From Gemmatimonadales bacterium (GTDB lineage Bacteria; Gemmatimonadota; Gemmatimonadetes; Gemmatimonadales; GWC2-71-9), in NCBI GenBank assembly GCA_036500345.1, contig DASYCE010000028.1, positions 1 through 64,000 on the forward strand: DNA of 64,000 nucleotides, in the 5' to 3' direction. Every line of letters begins with the position of its first letter. Position 1 is the stretch's first letter. Below are positions 7,237-13,831 of this stretch, in pieces. The notes below the pieces were generated by a model that did not search any database, was not told the origin of the DNA, and saw only the letters and a list, made by a program, of their open reading frames with translations. The position numbers were made by a program, and so were the translations under genes.

Positions 7237-7463
7237 CGCGAGACCTCTGCGGCGTTGGATGACTGTCGCGAATCTACCCGGTAACGAAGCCGGGCGAGAG
7301 CCCGCGACGTACCGTTTCAGGACAGTGAGTGTCTCAGCCTTGGACAGAGGGGAGCCGTATATTCTCTGGATTCGGGATCATCGAAGCCGGCAGTCTGACG
7401 AGTCACTCGTCGAACAATTCCGCCACACCATGCGGGACAGGGGTTATTCCGGATGAAGGCTGC

Positions 7464-9347
7464 GTGACCGACACGCTGGTCGAGCATCTCCAGCACGCCC
7501 TCGGCGATGCCTACACCATCGAGCGCGAGCTCGAGGGTGGCGGGATGAGCCGCGTCTTCGTGGCGCGCGAGCACGCGCTCGGCCGCGAGGTGGTCATCAA
7601 GGTGCTCCCGCCGGATCTTGCCGCCGGGGTCAATCGCGACCGCTTCCGTCGCGAAGTCCAGCTCGCCGCCCGGCTGTCGCATCCGTACATCGTGCCGTTG
7701 CTCCATGCCGGTGAGGATGGCGAGCTCCTCTGGTTCACCATGCCCTACATCGCCGGTGAGTCACTCCGCACACGATTGCAGCGGGGCGGGCCATTGCCGC
7801 TCGCCGAAGTCATCCGCCTGCTGCGCGACGTGGTCGAAGCGCTTGCCTACGCGCACTCGCGCGGCGTGGTGCACCGAGACATCAAGCCGGCCAACATCCT
7901 CTCCGACGGCCAGCATGCGCTGGTCACCGATTTCGGCGTGGCGAAGGCGCTGAACGCCGCGCTTCCGATGACCGGTCCGGGGCACACGACCTCGGGGATG
8001 GCGATTGGCACGCCGGCATACATGGCGCCGGAACAACTCGCGGCCGATCCCGAAGCCGATCAGCGAGTCGATATCTACGCAGTCGGGCTGCTGGCCTACG
8101 AACTGTTGAGCGGCGCGAGCCCGTTCGCGGCACCATCGCCCACCGCGACGATGACCGCGCAGCTGACCCGCGTGCCGTCGCCGCTGCACGAGCTGCGGTC
8201 CGATGTTCCCGAAGCATTTTCGCGACTGGTGCAGCATTGCCTCGCCAAGTCGCCGGAAGACCGGCCGCCGAACGCCGAAGCGATTCTCGCCGAACTCGAC
8301 CAGATCTCTGGCGCGCTTGCTGCCCACGCGCACCGCGGCGGCGAAGCGCTGCGCCCCAGGGCATCGTCGGTGCCGCTGGTCCTCGCGACGATCGCCGTCG
8401 TGGTGCTCGTCGCCGGCGGATTCTGGTGGACGCAGCGTCATGCGATCAACGCGGTCACGCGAGACAGCACCGTTGGCCGCGTCGGGTCGGGCGACACCAG
8501 CGACGCAGCCACGATCACCAAGCCGATGACGCACGCCGATTCGCTCGCGATCGCCGAGGCGTTCCGCGATCAACTGAAACAGCTCGACCCGAAGTACGCC
8601 AGGAAGCCGCCGGCGAAGAGCGTCGATTCCATGCCGCTCGACATCCAGATCGAGCGCACCGATTCACTGGTGCGCGCGCGGCTGCGCGAATACGCGGCGC
8701 AACTTCCCATGGCCGTCCGCCCGCCGGCGGCGAACGTCGTTCCGCCGGGAGGTACTCCGAGCGCACCAACAATCCCGAACGTGGCGGCGACGGTCAGCGG
8801 GACACGCTCACTGACGATCGTGCTGCCGGGGCGTCACGGGCCCGACTCGGCCCTCGAGCACGACATCGCCTCCGAACTGGAGCGTCGGCTCACGCGCTTC
8901 GGTGAATGGGACAAGGTGACGATCGACAGCAGCTGGCGGGGGAACCGTGCACCGGGAACCGGGCCATCCGACGCGTATATCTATCTCAATCTTCGGCACG
9001 GCAGCAACGATTCGGTGACGTTGTCGCTGTACATCCGCAACGCCGCGCCGGGAACGAGCTTCGGCTATAACGCGCTCAACAGCGACCCGGTCTACCGGCC
9101 GACCGGAGCCGCGCCGTTCGGCAGCACGATCCGGCGCGCCGGCCAATTGCTGGGGCAGTTGCGACGCCTCCCACCGGGGCAGCCCTGGTCGCAGGACATG
9201 GGGCGCGGCGGGCCGTCGTCGTATATCGAGGTCAATCCCGGTATGGGGCGCGGATTCACGCTGCGGATGGATTCGCTGCGGCACATCGGCGATTCGATCC
9301 GGGCGCACGGCTATCGCCCCCCGCCTCACCGGGATTCAGTGCCGTAA
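7464..9347 (+). CDS. Transmembrane serine/threonine protein kinase
   Basis: 627 aa. A eukaryotic-type kinase that phosphorylates Ser/Thr of cytoplasmic targets, tethered by one membrane helix (about 303-322). Kinase motifs in order: glycine loop GGGMSRVF (25-32), Lys 46 in VVIKVL, catalytic HRD 137-139, DFG 156-158 and APE 188-190, all intact. The extracytoplasmic part (about 300 residues) is proline- and charge-rich at first, then a folded domain with a pattern like a small nucleotide- or peptide-binding fold (RSLTIVLPGR...LRRLPPG), possibly a sensor. No PASTA repeats are seen. GTG 7464 is chosen because kinases of this type begin TDTLVEHLQ and an AAGG site lies 5-6 nt upstream; the frame is open to 7329. 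Confidence 0.88.
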   Translation: MTDTLVEHLQHALGDAYTIERELEGGGMSRVFVAREHALGREVVIKVLPPDLAAGVNRDRFRREVQLAARLSHPYIVPLLHAGEDGELLWFTMPYIAGESLRTRLQRGGPLPLAEVIRLLRDVVEALAYAHSRGVVHRDIKPANILSDGQHALVTDFGVAKALNAALPMTGPGHTTSGMAIGTPAYMAPEQLAADPEADQRVDIYAVGLLAYELLSGASPFAAPSPTATMTAQLTRVPSPLHELRSDVPEAFSRLVQHCLAKSPEDRPPNAEAILAELDQISGALAAHAHRGGEALRPRASSVPLVLATIAVVVLVAGGFWWTQRHAINAVTRDSTVGRVGSGDTSDAATITKPMTHADSLAIAEAFRDQLKQLDPKYARKPPAKSVDSMPLDIQIERTDSLVRARLREYAAQLPMAVRPPAANVVPPGGTPSAPTIPNVAATVSGTRSLTIVLPGRHGPDSALEHDIASELERRLTRFGEWDKVTIDSSWRGNRAPGTGPSDAYIYLNLRHGSNDSVTLSLYIRNAAPGTSFGYNALNSDPVYRPTGAAPFGSTIRRAGQLLGQLRRLPPGQPWSQDMGRGGPSSYIEVNPGMGRGFTLRMDSLRHIGDSIRAHGYRPPPHRDSVP

Positions 9348-9368: not shown

Positions 9369-10514
9369 CTATCGCACCAGCAGCAATCCGACCCGACCTC
9401 CAAACCCATCATCGCCTGACGGCAGGCCAGCCGGCGGTTGCCACGCCCCACCGTTGGTGCTGAGCTCCACGCGATACACTCCGGCAACTGCGGGGAGGAC
9501 GATTTCCCATCGTCCGTCACCAGTGCGCTTGAGGGTTTGTGCGCGCCACTCGGTGAGATCGCCGGTGAGCGATGCGGTGTGCGTCGAATCCGGGAGCATC
9601 AGGTAGAGATGGACGGTCGATGCATTCTCTCGCACCACCGACGCGAGCGCGGCCGGTTGAGGTACGACGGCCGTCTCGGCGGTGTGGTGAATCAGATCGA
9701 GCTTGACCCCGGCGGTGGTGTATCCGCCGCCGCGCGACGCCAGCATCGGGTCTGCCGCGAGTTGTCCCGCGCGAACCACGACCGACAGGATCGGCGTGAT
9801 CCGCATGGCGCCTTCTCCCTCCCACCACGTCTCGGGAGTGACACTCACGCCGAATCGCCGGCCTGCCCGCGCGTTCATCGACCAGAGCCCGTGGTCCCAC
9901 GCCATCCGGACGGCAAAGTCGCGAATATCGTGGAACGAGCCGGTGCCGAGGGAGTCGCTGTTTCCGGCAATCGGCGGCGCATCACCACGGATTGACGACA
10001 CCGGGATGCGATTGCTGGTGCTCTGCCACGACGCACCGAAGTGCCACGCCTTGAGATGAAGCTCTGCGTCGAGCATCGGCCGCGACCACGAACTGTTCTG
10101 CGCGCCGATCCACGCCATCCCCTCGTCCCACGCCGCGCGTGCCGTCACCGGACCGATGGTGCGTTCCGCGCCGATCTCGCCCGCCGCGGTGGTGGCCCAC
10201 GGCTCGGCGATGCTCTGACCGCTTTCAACGACAGGTCCGGCGTCAAGCGACCAACCCGCGGCGGTCGTCCGGTAGTGCGCCGCGCCGCTGAACCGACCTT
10301 CGACGCCGAGGCCTACGTGATCATCGACGCCGCCGTCGAACGACAGACGGAATCGAGGTGTCGAGGAGAGGAACGCGCTGGAGATGCGCGTCAGCGAACT
10401 CGACGGAAGCTGATCGAGCCGCGATTGGCCGCTGCCGGTTTCGAGCGAGAACTGCGCGGCAAGCGGCGCGGTGTACGCTGCCAGCGCAACGAGAACGATC
10501 GTCGTGGTCTTCAT
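9369..10514 (-). CDS. Exported protein with C-terminal glycogen-binding (AMPK/CBM48-like) domain
   Basis: 381 aa, last gene of the ECF sigma operon. Signal peptide (cleavage likely after LAAQ near 21), then about 260 residues of alternating, aromatic-poor strands typical of a secreted or outer-membrane beta structure, and a C-terminal domain of about 85 residues. That last domain carries the glycogen-binding signature: GDLTEW, then GDGRWEIVLP, YRVELSTNGGAW and DDGFGG. The domain recognises alpha-glucans in AMPK-beta and glycoside hydrolases; no catalytic domain is attached here. Its start overlaps the stop of the upstream gene by ATGA (10511-10514). A second copy of the domain lies in the gene at 11067. 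Confidence 0.75.
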   Translation of the reverse strand: MKTTTIVLVALAAYTAPLAAQFSLETGSGQSRLDQLPSSSLTRISSAFLSSTPRFRLSFDGGVDDHVGLGVEGRFSGAAHYRTTAAGWSLDAGPVVESGQSIAEPWATTAAGEIGAERTIGPVTARAAWDEGMAWIGAQNSSWSRPMLDAELHLKAWHFGASWQSTSNRIPVSSIRGDAPPIAGNSDSLGTGSFHDIRDFAVRMAWDHGLWSMNARAGRRFGVSVTPETWWEGEGAMRITPILSVVVRAGQLAADPMLASRGGGYTTAGVKLDLIHHTAETAVVPQPAALASVVRENASTVHLYLMLPDSTHTASLTGDLTEWRAQTLKRTGDGRWEIVLPAVAGVYRVELSTNGGAWQPPAGLPSGDDGFGGRVGLLLVR

Positions 10515-11065
10515 TCCATGTCTCCGCTTCCCGCGGGGGGGTGTCCCCGTTTGCCGGCCGCATCGTTGGTCAGGCGGACGTAGTCGCCGTCACTGGCGCG
10601 ACGCTTGGCGAGATCCGTGACGGTGCGCCACGCCTGCGCCGTGCTCACTCCGCTCGCCACCAGATCGAGGTATGCGCCAAGTGGCGCTGTCAGCGGCTGG
10701 CCGCCGCGCAGTTGCCGGAGTTCGGCGAGTCGCGTGCCGGGCACGCCGGCCTGCAGCGCGGCAGCGGCGGTGGTGAGCTCCGGTACGCTCGCGCCGGGGC
10801 CGAGAGTTGCCTGCGCGGTGTGCAGCGCGTCGCGAAGCCGGTCGAGTGCGTCGACGATGCGGTCGAGCGGGACGCTCTTGGCCTGCCCTTCGAGCGCACG
10901 CAACACCAACGGATCGGTCGGGAGATTCTCGCGGCCCGCGCTGTCGATCAACGCGGTGAGGCGCGCTGCGTCGCTGGCCGAAAATCGCGCGCCGATCCGC
11001 GGATCCTGTGCCCGCGCCGGCGAGGCGGCCGCCATGAGAACGAAGGTCAACAGACCGGTCCGCAT
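10511..11065 (-). CDS. Exported helical protein of the ECF sigma operon, unknown function
   Basis: 184 aa. Signal peptide ending at PARAQ (about 20), then a mostly helical protein rich in Ala, Leu and Arg with several heptad-like stretches (DRIVDALDRLRDAL, TTAAAALQA). Basic, Gly/Pro-rich C-terminus. It starts 1 base after the stop of the CBM48-like membrane gene and overlaps the next gene by 4 nt, so it is clearly part of the operon. No family recognised; it may be a periplasmic linker between the membrane and the exported CBM48-like proteins. Confidence 0.7.
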   Translation of the reverse strand: MRTGLLTFVLMAAASPARAQDPRIGARFSASDAARLTALIDSAGRENLPTDPLVLRALEGQAKSVPLDRIVDALDRLRDALHTAQATLGPGASVPELTTAAAALQAGVPGTRLAELRQLRGGQPLTAPLGAYLDLVASGVSTAQAWRTVTDLAKRRASDGDYVRLTNDAAGKRGHPPAGSGDME

Positions 11066-11066
11066 C

Positions 11067-11525
11067 CTATTCCCTCACCACCGTGACCACCGAAGTGGGA
11101 CGGCCGAAGTCGTCGGGCGCATTCGCGGCCCGCGCATCGGCTCGCCATTCATCCTGATTGACAAGATACGCGAAGCGGTAGCGACCGGGGGCGAGGCGGA
11201 CCGTAGCCGTCCACTCCCCACCGGTGGCCCGATGCAGTTCGACGCGGTCGGTGCGCCAGTCGGTGAAATCGCCGACCAGGGCAACGGAGTGGACCGCCGG
11301 TGCCGTGAGTGCGAACGTGACCGCAGTACCATCGTGCTGCCTCAAGAGGAAATCAGCGATGCCGATCGCCACCACGAGCATCGCCACGCGGATGCCGCGC
11401 GCAATGGTGCGGCGTCGCGCGCGGCGTCGCGCTCGCTCCGGGAGTCCGGGTGTCACGTTGACCGGGCGGCGCAGCGCATCCACCGCACGTCGCAGCGGAT
11501 CGTCGGGAGAAAGTTCGTCGCTCAT
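11067..11525 (-). CDS. Single-pass membrane protein with extracytoplasmic CBM48-like domain; candidate anti-sigma factor
   Basis: 152 aa. Cytoplasmic N-terminus of about 43 residues, very basic near the membrane (RARRRARRRT), one helix (about 46-62) and an outside domain of about 85 residues with the glycogen-binding pattern: VALVGDFTDW, GGEWTATVRL, GRYRFAYLVN and DDFGRPTSVV. It starts at an ATG that overlaps the sigma factor stop (11522-11525), the normal place of an anti-sigma gene. The N-terminus has no zinc-binding HxxxCxxC motif, so if it restrains the sigma factor it does so differently. The longer upstream reading to 11846 overlaps the sigma gene and is rejected. Confidence 0.75.
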   Translation of the reverse strand: MSDELSPDDPLRRAVDALRRPVNVTPGLPERARRRARRRTIARGIRVAMLVVAIGIADFLLRQHDGTAVTFALTAPAVHSVALVGDFTDWRTDRVELHRATGGEWTATVRLAPGRYRFAYLVNQDEWRADARAANAPDDFGRPTSVVTVVRE

Positions 11526-12058
11526 CGCTTCACCTCCGCAAGTTGTTGGCGCAGTTCCTGGCACGCGCGAGCCACCCGCATCTTGAGCGCCGGGATGCTG
11601 GCGCCGGTACTCAGCGACATCTCCTGATACTCGAGCCCTTCGACGTGCTTGAGCAGGAATGCTTCGCGGAGCACCGGTGAGAGCGCGGCGAGTGCCGCAT
11701 TGATCTCTGCCAGCCACTCCGGTCCCGATTCGGCATCGGACGCCGCGGTGGCGGCAATGGCGTATTCGGCTTCGCGGCCCGACACGAACGGCCACCATCG
11801 GCGCCGCTTCGACCGGCAGCGGTTGACCGCGATCCGGAAAAGCCACGCCTCCATCCGCTCCGGCCTGGTCCCTTTGCGGATGGCGCGTTCGGCACGAAGA
11901 AAGACATCCTGGAGGACCTCATCCGCGTCGGCCGCGGAGCGGAGAAAGTGCGTGGCAAAGCGCATCAGCGCCGGCGAATACTTCGCCATGAGCTGACCGA
12001 GTGCCTCGCTGTCGCCCCGGGCGATCCGGTCGACCAGTTCTTGATCTGTCGCCGTCAC
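11522..12058 (-). CDS. ECF-type RNA polymerase sigma factor
   Basis: 178 aa, with the two domains of ECF sigma factors. Region 2 at about 8-85 contains DADEVLQDVFLRA and the WLFRIAVNRCR helix; region 4 at about 118-170 has AALSPVLREAFLLKHVEGLEYQEM and a recognition helix after SIPALKMRVARA. It directs RNA polymerase to a small regulon, usually including its own promoter. First gene of a four-gene operon (sigma, membrane CBM48-like protein, exported helical protein, exported CBM48-like protein), all coupled by overlaps or 1-base gaps. A 12-bp palindrome lies 30 nt upstream. Confidence 0.9.
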   Translation of the reverse strand: MTATDQELVDRIARGDSEALGQLMAKYSPALMRFATHFLRSAADADEVLQDVFLRAERAIRKGTRPERMEAWLFRIAVNRCRSKRRRWWPFVSGREAEYAIAATAASDAESGPEWLAEINAALAALSPVLREAFLLKHVEGLEYQEMSLSTGASIPALKMRVARACQELRQQLAEVKR

Positions 12059-12087
12059 CTATGCCAGACCCCGCGCGTTCGACGAGG

Positions 12088-12099
12088 GTCACATGTGAC
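12088..12099. promoter_or_regulatory. 12-bp palindrome between divergent sigma factor and DUF4397 genes
   Basis: GTCACATGTGAC, exact dyad symmetry, in the 105-bp gap between the ECF sigma gene (start 12058) and the lipoprotein gene (start 12164). A second inverted repeat, GACTCC...GGAGTC, begins within it and runs to about 12120. Likely an operator acting on one or both promoters; no regulator can be named. Confidence 0.4.
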
Positions 12100-12163
12100 T
12101 CCGGGGGGGCACCGGGAGTCCTTGCTGTATCGACCGTCAGCTCTCCACACACCCGAGGCTCTC

Positions 12164-12847
12164 ATGCGTGTCCCGATTCTTGTCCGCGGCGCCCTCGCCG
12201 TGATGCTCGCCACCGCCTGTACCGACAGCGTCCCGGTGCCATCGGGGAGCGTTTCGCTGCGGATCGTCAACGCCCTCACCGCGTCCGGCGCTCAGCTCAA
12301 GGTCGACCAGGCCGGCGTCACCCTTCCGGCAATCGGCCAATCGACGTCGGTCCTCGTCGCTCCGGGGTCGCACCACCTGCAACTCAATGGGTCGGGCGGC
12401 GCGTCGCTGGTCGATACGAATGTGTCGGTGAATCCGAACGGCAACCAGACCGTGGTCCTCACAGGGCCGGGTGCGGTGTCGGTGGCCACAGACACCAATA
12501 CCACGAATCCCGGAAACGGCGGCTACAAGTCGATTGTCGGGAGCGTGCTGCTGGTCAACTCGGCGCCGGGGGTCGGACCATTCGACGTGGTCGTCTACCA
12601 GGCCAACAGCGACTCAGTCTATCACTTCGGCAGCTTTGCATACGGGGCCGGATCGCAGCCTCCGCCGGCGCCATACGGCTTCTACATCCCATTCGTTCCG
12701 GCCACCTACACCTTCACGGTGGCGAATCCGGGCAGCAATACGGCGCTCGCATCGACGGAGCTCACCCTCGCCACCGATGACAAGTGGACGGTGCTCCTCA
12801 CCAAGTCCGTCGAAGGCGACCTGGTCCTGACCGCCACGAAGCAGTAG
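12164..12847 (+). CDS. DUF4397 domain-containing lipoprotein
   Basis: 227 aa. Lipobox ATAC near residue 18 (MLATACTDS), so a lipid-anchored envelope protein. The mature part has the DUF4397 pattern: SLRIVNAL at the start of the domain, LKVDQAG, then VLVAPGSHHLQL, and a second, similar unit from about 120 (SVLLVNSAPGVGPFDVVVYQ ... YIPFVPATYTFTV). The domain is common in exported proteins of Bacteroidota and Gemmatimonadota; its role is unknown. The frame is open to 11948, but the ATG at 12164 begins the signal peptide. Divergent from the sigma operon. Confidence 0.8.
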   Translation: MRVPILVRGALAVMLATACTDSVPVPSGSVSLRIVNALTASGAQLKVDQAGVTLPAIGQSTSVLVAPGSHHLQLNGSGGASLVDTNVSVNPNGNQTVVLTGPGAVSVATDTNTTNPGNGGYKSIVGSVLLVNSAPGVGPFDVVVYQANSDSVYHFGSFAYGAGSQPPPAPYGFYIPFVPATYTFTVANPGSNTALASTELTLATDDKWTVLLTKSVEGDLVLTATKQ

Positions 12848-12853
12848 CGCGGA

Positions 12854-13831
12854 TCACTGGCCGAGAATCATCGCGAACACGAGCGGCGCCACGATGCTGG
12901 CGTCGCTCTCGATGATGTACTTCGGCGTGTCGATGCCGAGCTTCCCCCAGGTGATCTTCTCGTTGGGAACGGCGCCCGAGTACGATCCGTAGCTCGTCGT
13001 CGAATCGCTGATCTGGCAGAAATACGCCCAGACCGGAATGTCCTCGCGTTGCAGGTCCTGATGGAGCATCGGGACGACGCAGATCGGGAAGTCACCGGCG
13101 ATCCCGCCGCCGATCTGGAAGAAGCCAATCCCTGCGCCATTGGCGTTCGCCATGTACCACTCGGCGAGCGTCATCATGTACTCGATCCCGGTGCGCACCG
13201 TGTGGACGTTCTTCACGTCCTTCGTGATGCAATGTCCCGAATACATGTTGCCGAGCGTCGAATCTTCCCAGCCGGGAACCCAGATCGGCAGGTTTCGCTC
13301 GCACGCCGCGAGCATCCACGAATGCTTCGGATCGATCTGGTAATGCTGCTCGAGCTTTCCGCTGCGCAGCACGCGATAGAAGAACTCGTGCGGGAAGTAG
13401 CGCTCGCCTGCCGTATCGGCCGCGACCCATTCTTCGAGCACCGCGCCTTCGAGGCGGCGCATCGCTTCCATCTCGGGTATGCAGGTGTCGGTGACCCGAT
13501 TCATGTGCCGGTCGAGGAGCGCCTTCTCCTCGTGCGGCGTGAGGTCCCGGTAGTGTGGCACGCGTTCGTAGTAATCGTGCGCAACGAGATTGAAGATGTC
13601 TTCCTCGAGATTCGCGCCGGTGCAGGTGATCGCCTGGACCTTGTCCTGACGGATCATCTCGGCGAGCGAGAGTCCGAGCTCTGCCGTACTCATCGCACCG
13701 GCGAGGGTGATCATCATCTTGCCGCCGCGGCCAAGATGCGCGACGTAGCCGTCGGTGGCATCGATGACGGTCGCGGCGTTGAAATGGCGGTAGTGATGCC
13801 GCAGGAAGTCGGAGATCGGACGGGTCGTCAC
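12854..13831 (-). CDS. Deoxyhypusine synthase-like (homospermidine-type) aminobutyl transferase
   Basis: 325 aa, full length for the deoxyhypusine synthase family, which uses NAD and spermidine to move a 4-aminobutyl group onto an acceptor. In eukaryotes and archaea the acceptor is eIF5A; bacteria lack that protein, and bacterial relatives are thought to act on small amines or unknown acceptors. Seen: NAD-fold segment MMITLAGAMSTAELG (about 39-53), TCTGANLEEDIFN, the GIGFFQIGGGIAGDF loop, and the catalytic Lys 297 in NEKITWGK, which corresponds to the enzyme-imine lysine of human DHS. So it is probably active. A TATCTTTTG promoter element lies at 13887-13895. Divergent from the methyltransferase gene. 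Confidence 0.85.
   Translation of the reverse strand: MTTRPISDFLRHHYRHFNAATVIDATDGYVAHLGRGGKMMITLAGAMSTAELGLSLAEMIRQDKVQAITCTGANLEEDIFNLVAHDYYERVPHYRDLTPHEEKALLDRHMNRVTDTCIPEMEAMRRLEGAVLEEWVAADTAGERYFPHEFFYRVLRSGKLEQHYQIDPKHSWMLAACERNLPIWVPGWEDSTLGNMYSGHCITKDVKNVHTVRTGIEYMMTLAEWYMANANGAGIGFFQIGGGIAGDFPICVVPMLHQDLQREDIPVWAYFCQISDSTTSYGSYSGAVPNEKITWGKLGIDTPKYIIESDASIVAPLVFAMILGQ

Follow-up and report, generated by a model that had tools for sequence, protein, structure and literature searches.

The window, a 64,000-nucleotide stretch of contig DASYCE010000028.1 from a Gemmatimonadales bacterium (genome of 3.3 Mb in 32 contigs), carries a four-gene operon on its minus strand at positions 9369-12058. 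The genes encode an extracytoplasmic function (ECF) sigma factor, a membrane protein with a CBM48 carbohydrate-binding domain, an exported helical protein, and a second CBM48 protein whose larger part is a predicted outer-membrane barrel. We consider it probable that this is an ECF sigma/derived anti-sigma system carrying information across the whole cell envelope. The computed evidence comprises the gene order, a link between the tail of the membrane protein and anti-sigma domains, the barrel and CBM48 folds, conserved tryptophans, and a promoter motif.

The sigma and membrane protein genes overlap by ATGA, as do the helical and barrel protein genes, and the gap between the membrane and helical protein genes is 1 nucleotide, as read from the sequence. 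This confirms the translational coupling of the four genes reported in a first-pass annotation, which had been made from the sequence alone. The sigma factor (178 amino acids) conforms to the ECF definition, with regions 2 and 4 only in about 180 amino acids (Sigma70_r2, 53.1 bits; Sigma70_r4_2, 40.7 bits). The membrane protein is matched above the Pfam cut-offs by AMPK1_CBM (38.8 bits) and CBM_48 (34.6 bits). No Pfam family exceeds its cut-off in the third or the fourth protein.

The operon is conserved across the order and the class. Thus chance or a local oddity is ruled out. The membrane protein was matched in 118 of the 151 genomes of the order, a few weak matches possibly being other CBM48 proteins. 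Regions of about 8 kb were taken for 40 of the 118 matching genomes, and genes were called by profile searches. The sigma, membrane and helical protein genes occur together in 40/40 regions and all four genes in 39/40, the profile search finding no barrel gene in the region of L064. The helical protein, searched alone, is present in 154 of the 249 sampled genomes of the phylum. Among 16 genomes without the membrane protein that were listed in both searches, G029 alone has the helical protein; it is absent from the other 15. The order sigma factor, membrane protein, barrel, helical protein is frequent at 20 further loci, most of which belong to other families of the class.

Variants of the operon were also observed. 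In L168, L169 and L172 the barrel gene is followed by a second helical gene (sigma, membrane, helical, barrel, helical). In L068 (2515-4785) the helical and barrel-CBM48 proteins are fused in one reading frame of 756 codons, which would fit a physical partnership of the two. Four genomes of the window's genus (G071, G129, G135, G141) have no match to the membrane protein; thus the unit may have been lost or replaced in places. A complete operon of the Gemmatimonadota type lies on a contig labelled Candidatus Eisenbacteria (L078), reflecting either transfer or mis-binning. In a metagenome-assembled genome labelled Bipolaricaulota (L090), genes for a sigma factor and a CBM48 membrane protein are followed by those for two exported proteins, one helical-looking and one large with PKD-like repeats, both judged by eye.

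The first-pass annotation placed the membrane protein in the anti-sigma position and noted that it lacks the usual zinc motif. Both statements hold: the 43-residue cytoplasmic tail contains no Hx3Cx2C motif, and it appears to be linked via intermediates to true anti-sigma domains. One scan of genome contigs returned 80 loci, the lower ones being mostly ordinary CBM48 enzymes. At three distant loci, L080, L087 and L088, the sigma gene is followed by genes for a CBM48 membrane protein with Hx3Cx2C and then for a relative of the helical protein. These loci are labelled Clostridia, Desantisbacteria and Chitinispirillaceae, respectively; the labels may be wrong, since the sequences come from metagenome bins. 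Pfam zf-HC2 is above the cut-off in L080 and L087 and gives no hit in L088. The next gene in L080, cut by the contig end, encodes an exported strand-rich protein, as judged by eye.

Tails from other families of the class are zinc-less and have the full pattern ELxxYLDGExxxxxLPxELxxEAxxWExL...APxxLExRV. A profile alignment of 30 minimal tails of the order matches them to the end of this form (E 4.8e-11, 97%); from the initial 41, three were left out by name and others for having fewer than 30 or more than 120 residues. The NCBIfam model 'antisigma' matches among six zinc-less proteins of the class scanned (1.3e-7 and 3.4e-5) and in 7 of 16 members of the order (best 5e-6), all matches being below the curated cut-off. 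According to the available portion of PMC7406223, class I anti-sigma factors contact sigma region 4 through helices 1-3 and region 2 through helix 4, and it is this last helix that makes most of the predicted contacts. Together with the alignment to the end of the zinc-less form, this suggests that the window tail is an anti-sigma domain of which only the final part is left. The protein is not filed as a class I (ASDI) member, because the four-helix N-terminal domain is not there: a tail of 43 amino acids has no room for helices 1-2. The Hx3Cx2C motif, also absent, is optional in this class. The zinc form, the zinc-less form and the short tail offer a natural series of anti-sigma domain reduction.

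The fourth protein had been described as an exported CBM48-like protein. The possibility that it is simply that was rejected on the basis of a model built from 10 sequences, which shows a barrel plus a CBM48. The C-terminal part does have the CBM48 fold in the model, though there is no Pfam hit, and residues 21-275 are predicted to form an outer-membrane barrel. The 14 modelled strands are 7-15 residues each and are followed by the small beta domain. Every one of the 28 Foldseek hits with an E of 0.001 or lower is an outer-membrane barrel, and OmpG comes first. In structural comparison CymA (Z 16.5, root-mean-square deviation (rmsd) 4.5 over 242 residues) and OmpG (Z 15.6) are tied; CymA is a cyclodextrin channel. 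The even number of strands, the barrel fold and a signal peptide recognised by eye agree with an outer-membrane barrel, at the modest confidence of the model. The CBM48 of this protein is expected to be periplasmic, because an even number of strands puts both ends in the periplasm. The other CBM48, that of the membrane protein, which the first-pass annotation placed on the outside, is likewise predicted to be periplasmic and not at the cell surface. Thus, according to the models, both CBM48 domains should face the periplasm.

The third protein is indeed helical and exported, as had been annotated: the model (pLDDT 88.9, the predicted local distance difference test score) has nine helices, and a signal peptide was recognised by eye. 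The family has a conserved stretch GLPxxPLxxKxxEGxxK. No clear fold match was found among solved structures (best Foldseek E 0.18; best Z 7.8, to designed helical proteins). The protein may serve as a periplasmic adaptor.

The sugar contacts of the AMPK domain are W100, K126, W133, L146 and T148, and mutating them markedly reduces glycogen binding, as stated in the accessible part of PMC2642990. Trp100 is kept in 41/41 membrane proteins and Trp133 in 35/41, and both are kept in 39/39 barrel proteins. Pooling all groups, W100 is kept in 121/121 sequences and W133 in 114/121, the L146 position is aromatic in 120/121, and K126 occurs in 0/121. For comparison, W133 is kept in 7/52 CBM48 domains of enzymes, and position 126 is Arg or Lys in 9/10 small stand-alone CBM48 proteins. 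In this tally the barrel count excludes L068, whose 'ext' row was the membrane protein, and L064, which has no barrel gene; control reading frames were passed over if they had no GxFxxW-type motif. T148 and N150 are mostly changed in the order; in the barrel proteins of the order the equivalents of K126 and N150 are lost. The window has both tryptophans in both proteins; at the K126 and T148 positions it has Ala and Glu. Judging from these sequences, the aromatic platform is under selection and the glycogen-type polar contact is gone. Thus classic glycogen binding is less likely, and sugar binding as such is neither proved nor excluded. Both CBM48 domains appear to carry a modified glucan-type platform; glycogen sensing is unproven.

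Glucan binding and contact between the domains are rival emphases within one pathway. The former, proposed as glucan signalling in the first-pass annotation, would mean that the CBM48 domains bind an alpha-glucan (glycogen, maltodextrin or cyclic glucan) and that their occupation sets the sigma factor free, as in the biomass sensing of RsgI-SigI; we regard it as rather unlikely. The aromatic residues, whose loss the annotation had named as contrary evidence, are kept in both proteins, unlike Trp133 in most of the enzyme domains. The cyclodextrin channel CymA is the tied best structural match of the barrel, but it is tied with the general porin OmpG and at 5% identity. The RsgI precedent (PMC4711584, as far as its accessible text goes) also favours a glucan sensor. 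On the other hand, Lys126 is replaced in every member and T148 in most, and mutating either residue cuts glycogen binding of AMPK (PMC2642990, in the same portion).

Alternatively, the CBM48 domains could be protein-protein modules: a putative contact between those of the barrel and of the membrane protein, direct or via the helical protein, would report the state of the outer membrane with no sugar involved. This is quite possible, if short of probable. Homologous domains on opposite membranes are encoded in one operon, the K126 and N150 equivalents are lost in the barrel proteins of the order, and the helical protein is co-conserved with the membrane protein. However, the near-100% retention of both stacking tryptophans is then left unexplained.

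The operons of the family are preceded by a common motif, TGTGAC-N16/17-GGGTMT. When the regions upstream of 41 sigma genes were searched for dyads, GTGAC-N16-GGGT was found in 13, the best dyad in shuffled sequences occurring in at most 5. With longer ends, the strict form is present in 18/41 regions (shuffle maximum 1) and the loose form in 23/41 (shuffle maximum 2; 200 shuffles). In 21 of the 23 loose-form regions a GTG or ATG start codon lies exactly 7 nucleotides downstream, which suggests that the transcript of the sigma operon is leaderless.

Scanning 61 family genomes with the motif yielded 64 sites, compared to 25 for a swapped control motif. The genes next to the sites were then surveyed, leaving out one non-operon site of the 64, G273:C9:9401, as well as five that belong to operons (G091, G061, G143), and taking in nine sites from three further genomes. 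Starts of lipoprotein-like genes were found within 70 nucleotides of 15/52 non-operon sites and 0/25 control sites (p 0.0013). Under a stricter lipoprotein rule, 7 lipoprotein and 4 DUF4382 genes were found among 67 sites, with 0/25 in the control. The sites had already been looked at once when the two rules were drawn up; both were applied in the same way to the control. The sites followed by neither a sigma gene, a DUF4382 gene nor a lipoprotein (37/67) are taken to be mostly chance occurrences, because the swapped motif itself gave 25 sites against 64. Among the predicted lipoprotein targets, one lies in the window genome: an Ig-like lipoprotein 8 nucleotides downstream of its site. The predicted sites in L234 and L245 precede lipoproteins that look serpin-like by eye. 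In L088 a DUF4382 gene (8387-9136) lies just downstream of the zinc-form operon, as in Gemmatimonadota.

The predicted regulon thus consists of envelope lipoproteins and not of glycogen or starch genes, and in this point the glycogen- or starch-related pathway suggested by the first-pass annotation is not supported. The same targets speak against a glucan sensor and agree with CBM48 domains acting as protein-protein modules.

Several observations weigh against an anti-sigma system spanning the envelope. The full zinc-less tail and the zinc form align over the same end region with E 7.5e-5 and a probability of 62%, and the direct comparison of the minimal tail with the zinc form is not significant (probability 3%), so that the link runs via the intermediate form. 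The mean pLDDT of the barrel model is 58, with the stretch 82-194 below 50, making confidence in it modest. The lipoprotein rule that gave 15/52 was relaxed after the misses of the stricter rule had been seen. Finally, the tail in the window's genus is the most degenerate, at 43 amino acids, arginine-rich and with the RVM helix motif lost; thus sigma binding in this genus is the weakest link. These features of the tail would be expected if, in this genus only, the membrane protein were no longer an anti-sigma factor but a mere CBM48 membrane protein in the operon, the sigma factor being controlled by transcription alone. We consider this improbable, as the ATGA coupling to the sigma gene and the promoter site are both kept, and three sister genomes with a match retain the four-gene unit.

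For the envelope-spanning sigma/anti-sigma system, we infer sigma binding, topology, ligand, order of the relay and proteolysis as follows. The membrane protein would be a derived class I anti-sigma factor that has lost the zinc finger and the first helices and holds the sigma factor mainly by the last helix region, its periplasmic CBM48 acting as the sensor. The fourth protein would sit in the outer membrane as a 14-strand barrel with its CBM48 hanging into the periplasm, and the third would be a periplasmic helical adaptor. The trigger may be a change at the barrel, or the two tryptophan platforms may become occupied, either by a glucan-like ligand or by one another. This would alter the anti-sigma factor or set off its proteolysis, and the freed sigma factor would transcribe its own operon, as a leaderless transcript, and a small set of envelope lipoproteins. 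The Site-2 protease family PF02163 is present, but it is also present in 14/14 control genomes. Thus proteolytic release is possible and not specifically indicated. A bolder reading, less likely than not, is that a shared glycan or the helical adaptor connects the two matched CBM48 domains, of the barrel and of an anti-sigma factor with little beyond its last helix region, and that they report the state of the outer membrane or of surface glycan to a lipoprotein-making sigma factor.

None of the known systems compared here combines all parts of the operon. FecI-FecR-FecA cell-surface signalling involves an outer-membrane barrel, an inner-membrane anti-sigma factor and an ECF sigma factor, types of parts that the window operon also seems to have. 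However, the window barrel is a 14-strand, porin-like one, and its extra domain is C-terminal and of the CBM48 type; the FecR, STN and TonB-receptor families gave no Pfam hit in the operon proteins at E up to 1. The SigI-RsgI system of Clostridium thermocellum, as described in the accessible part of PMC4711584, likewise has a sigma factor, an adjacent membrane anti-sigma factor with an outside carbohydrate-binding module, and autoregulation. It differs in its sigma factor, sigma-I, which is no ordinary ECF factor, and in its cytoplasmic anti-sigma domain, which is another one; moreover, the cell has a single membrane, and there is no barrel or helical partner in that description. Indeed, no Pfam family of the RsgI N-terminal domain was found in the operon proteins at E up to 1.

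The class I anti-sigma factors RseA, RskA and ChrR have a cytoplasmic domain, often followed by a transmembrane segment, and an ECF partner in the operon, and occur in zinc and zinc-less forms (PMC7406223, available portion), whereas the window tail seems to keep only the helix 3/4 part and is accompanied by a periplasmic CBM48 and a barrel partner. In SigX-CfrX-OprF of Pseudomonas aeruginosa an outer-membrane porin is likewise proposed to control an ECF sigma factor, but CfrX is small and soluble, there is a mechanosensing complex with CmpX, and the accessible text (PMC8999054) describes no CBM48. The same text describes SCO4117 (ECF52) of Streptomyces coelicolor, in which ECF control likewise goes together with a zinc anti-sigma part and a carbohydrate-binding domain on the outside; there, however, the sigma and anti-sigma parts are fused in one protein and there is no outer membrane. 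The glycogen-binding domain of the AMPK beta-subunit (PDB 1z0n; PMC2642990, in part) has the CBM48 fold and both stacking tryptophans in common with the operon proteins, whereas Lys126 is never kept in the latter, and T148 and N150 are mostly changed in the order. In logic the nearest of these is RsgI-SigI; FecIRA and SigX-OprF are nearest in using an outer-membrane barrel. No paper joining an ECF sigma factor, an anti-sigma factor and CBM48, and none joining two of the domain names with Gemmatimonadota, was found in a search that covered few subscription journals, so that publication elsewhere is possible. CBM48, sigma factor and periplasm occurred together in one paper, a biofilm metagenome study, as far as its available text goes.

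The features of the operon and its upstream region are listed in Table 1. The operon is convergent with a gene (7329-9347) whose product is a Serine/threonine protein kinase that has a membrane segment and an external part. Beyond the divergent lipoprotein gene, positions 12854-13831 encode a Deoxyhypusine synthase-like protein (PF01916, 119 bits), here in a bacterial genome.

Table 1. Features of the ECF sigma operon and of the adjacent divergent gene (window coordinates).
Feature	Position	Strand	Evidence or remark
ECF sigma factor, regions 2 and 4	11522..12058	-	Pfam Sigma70_r2 and Sigma70_r4_2 over cut-off; TIGR02937
Membrane anti-sigma-like protein: 43-residue cytoplasmic tail, one transmembrane segment, CBM48	11067..11525	-	
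Cytoplasmic tail, putative truncated class I anti-sigma domain, helix 3/4 part only	11397..11525	-	Profile alignment
Predicted periplasmic CBM48 of membrane protein	11076..11330	-	PF16561, 38.8 bits; Trp100 and Trp133 kept, Lys126 = Ala
Exported all-helical protein, 9 helices	10511..11065	-	Model pLDDT 88.9; no Pfam; no clear PDB fold
Predicted outer-membrane beta-barrel with C-terminal CBM48	9369..10514	-	
Predicted 14-strand barrel, residues 21-275	9690..10454	-	Modelled strands; OmpG E 7.1e-6; CymA Z 16.5, OmpG Z 15.6
C-terminal AMPK-type CBM48, residues 297-381	9372..9626	-	1z0n Z 12.2, rmsd 1.5 over 80 residues
Predicted ECF promoter TGTGAC-N16-GGGTCT	12066..12093	-	7 nucleotides before sigma start codon
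Weak divergent promoter-like site TGTGAC-N16-GAGTCC	12094..12121	+	Strict divergent form in 12/41 family upstream regions
Divergent DUF4397 lipoprotein, possibly co-regulated	12164..12847	+	DUF4382 lipoprotein there in several relatives

Few regulators have been studied in Gemmatimonadota, which are common in soil, and the helical marker of this operon occurs in 154/249 of their sampled genomes. Since a predicted promoter and target set come with the unit, its function can be tested at once. By way of two domains akin to glycogen-binding ones, the operon appears to couple a channel in the outer membrane to the switching of genes. A glycogen-type domain on both membranes of one pathway is a rare case and, if true, an outer-to-inner-membrane signalling device with two CBM48 domains would be previously undescribed.

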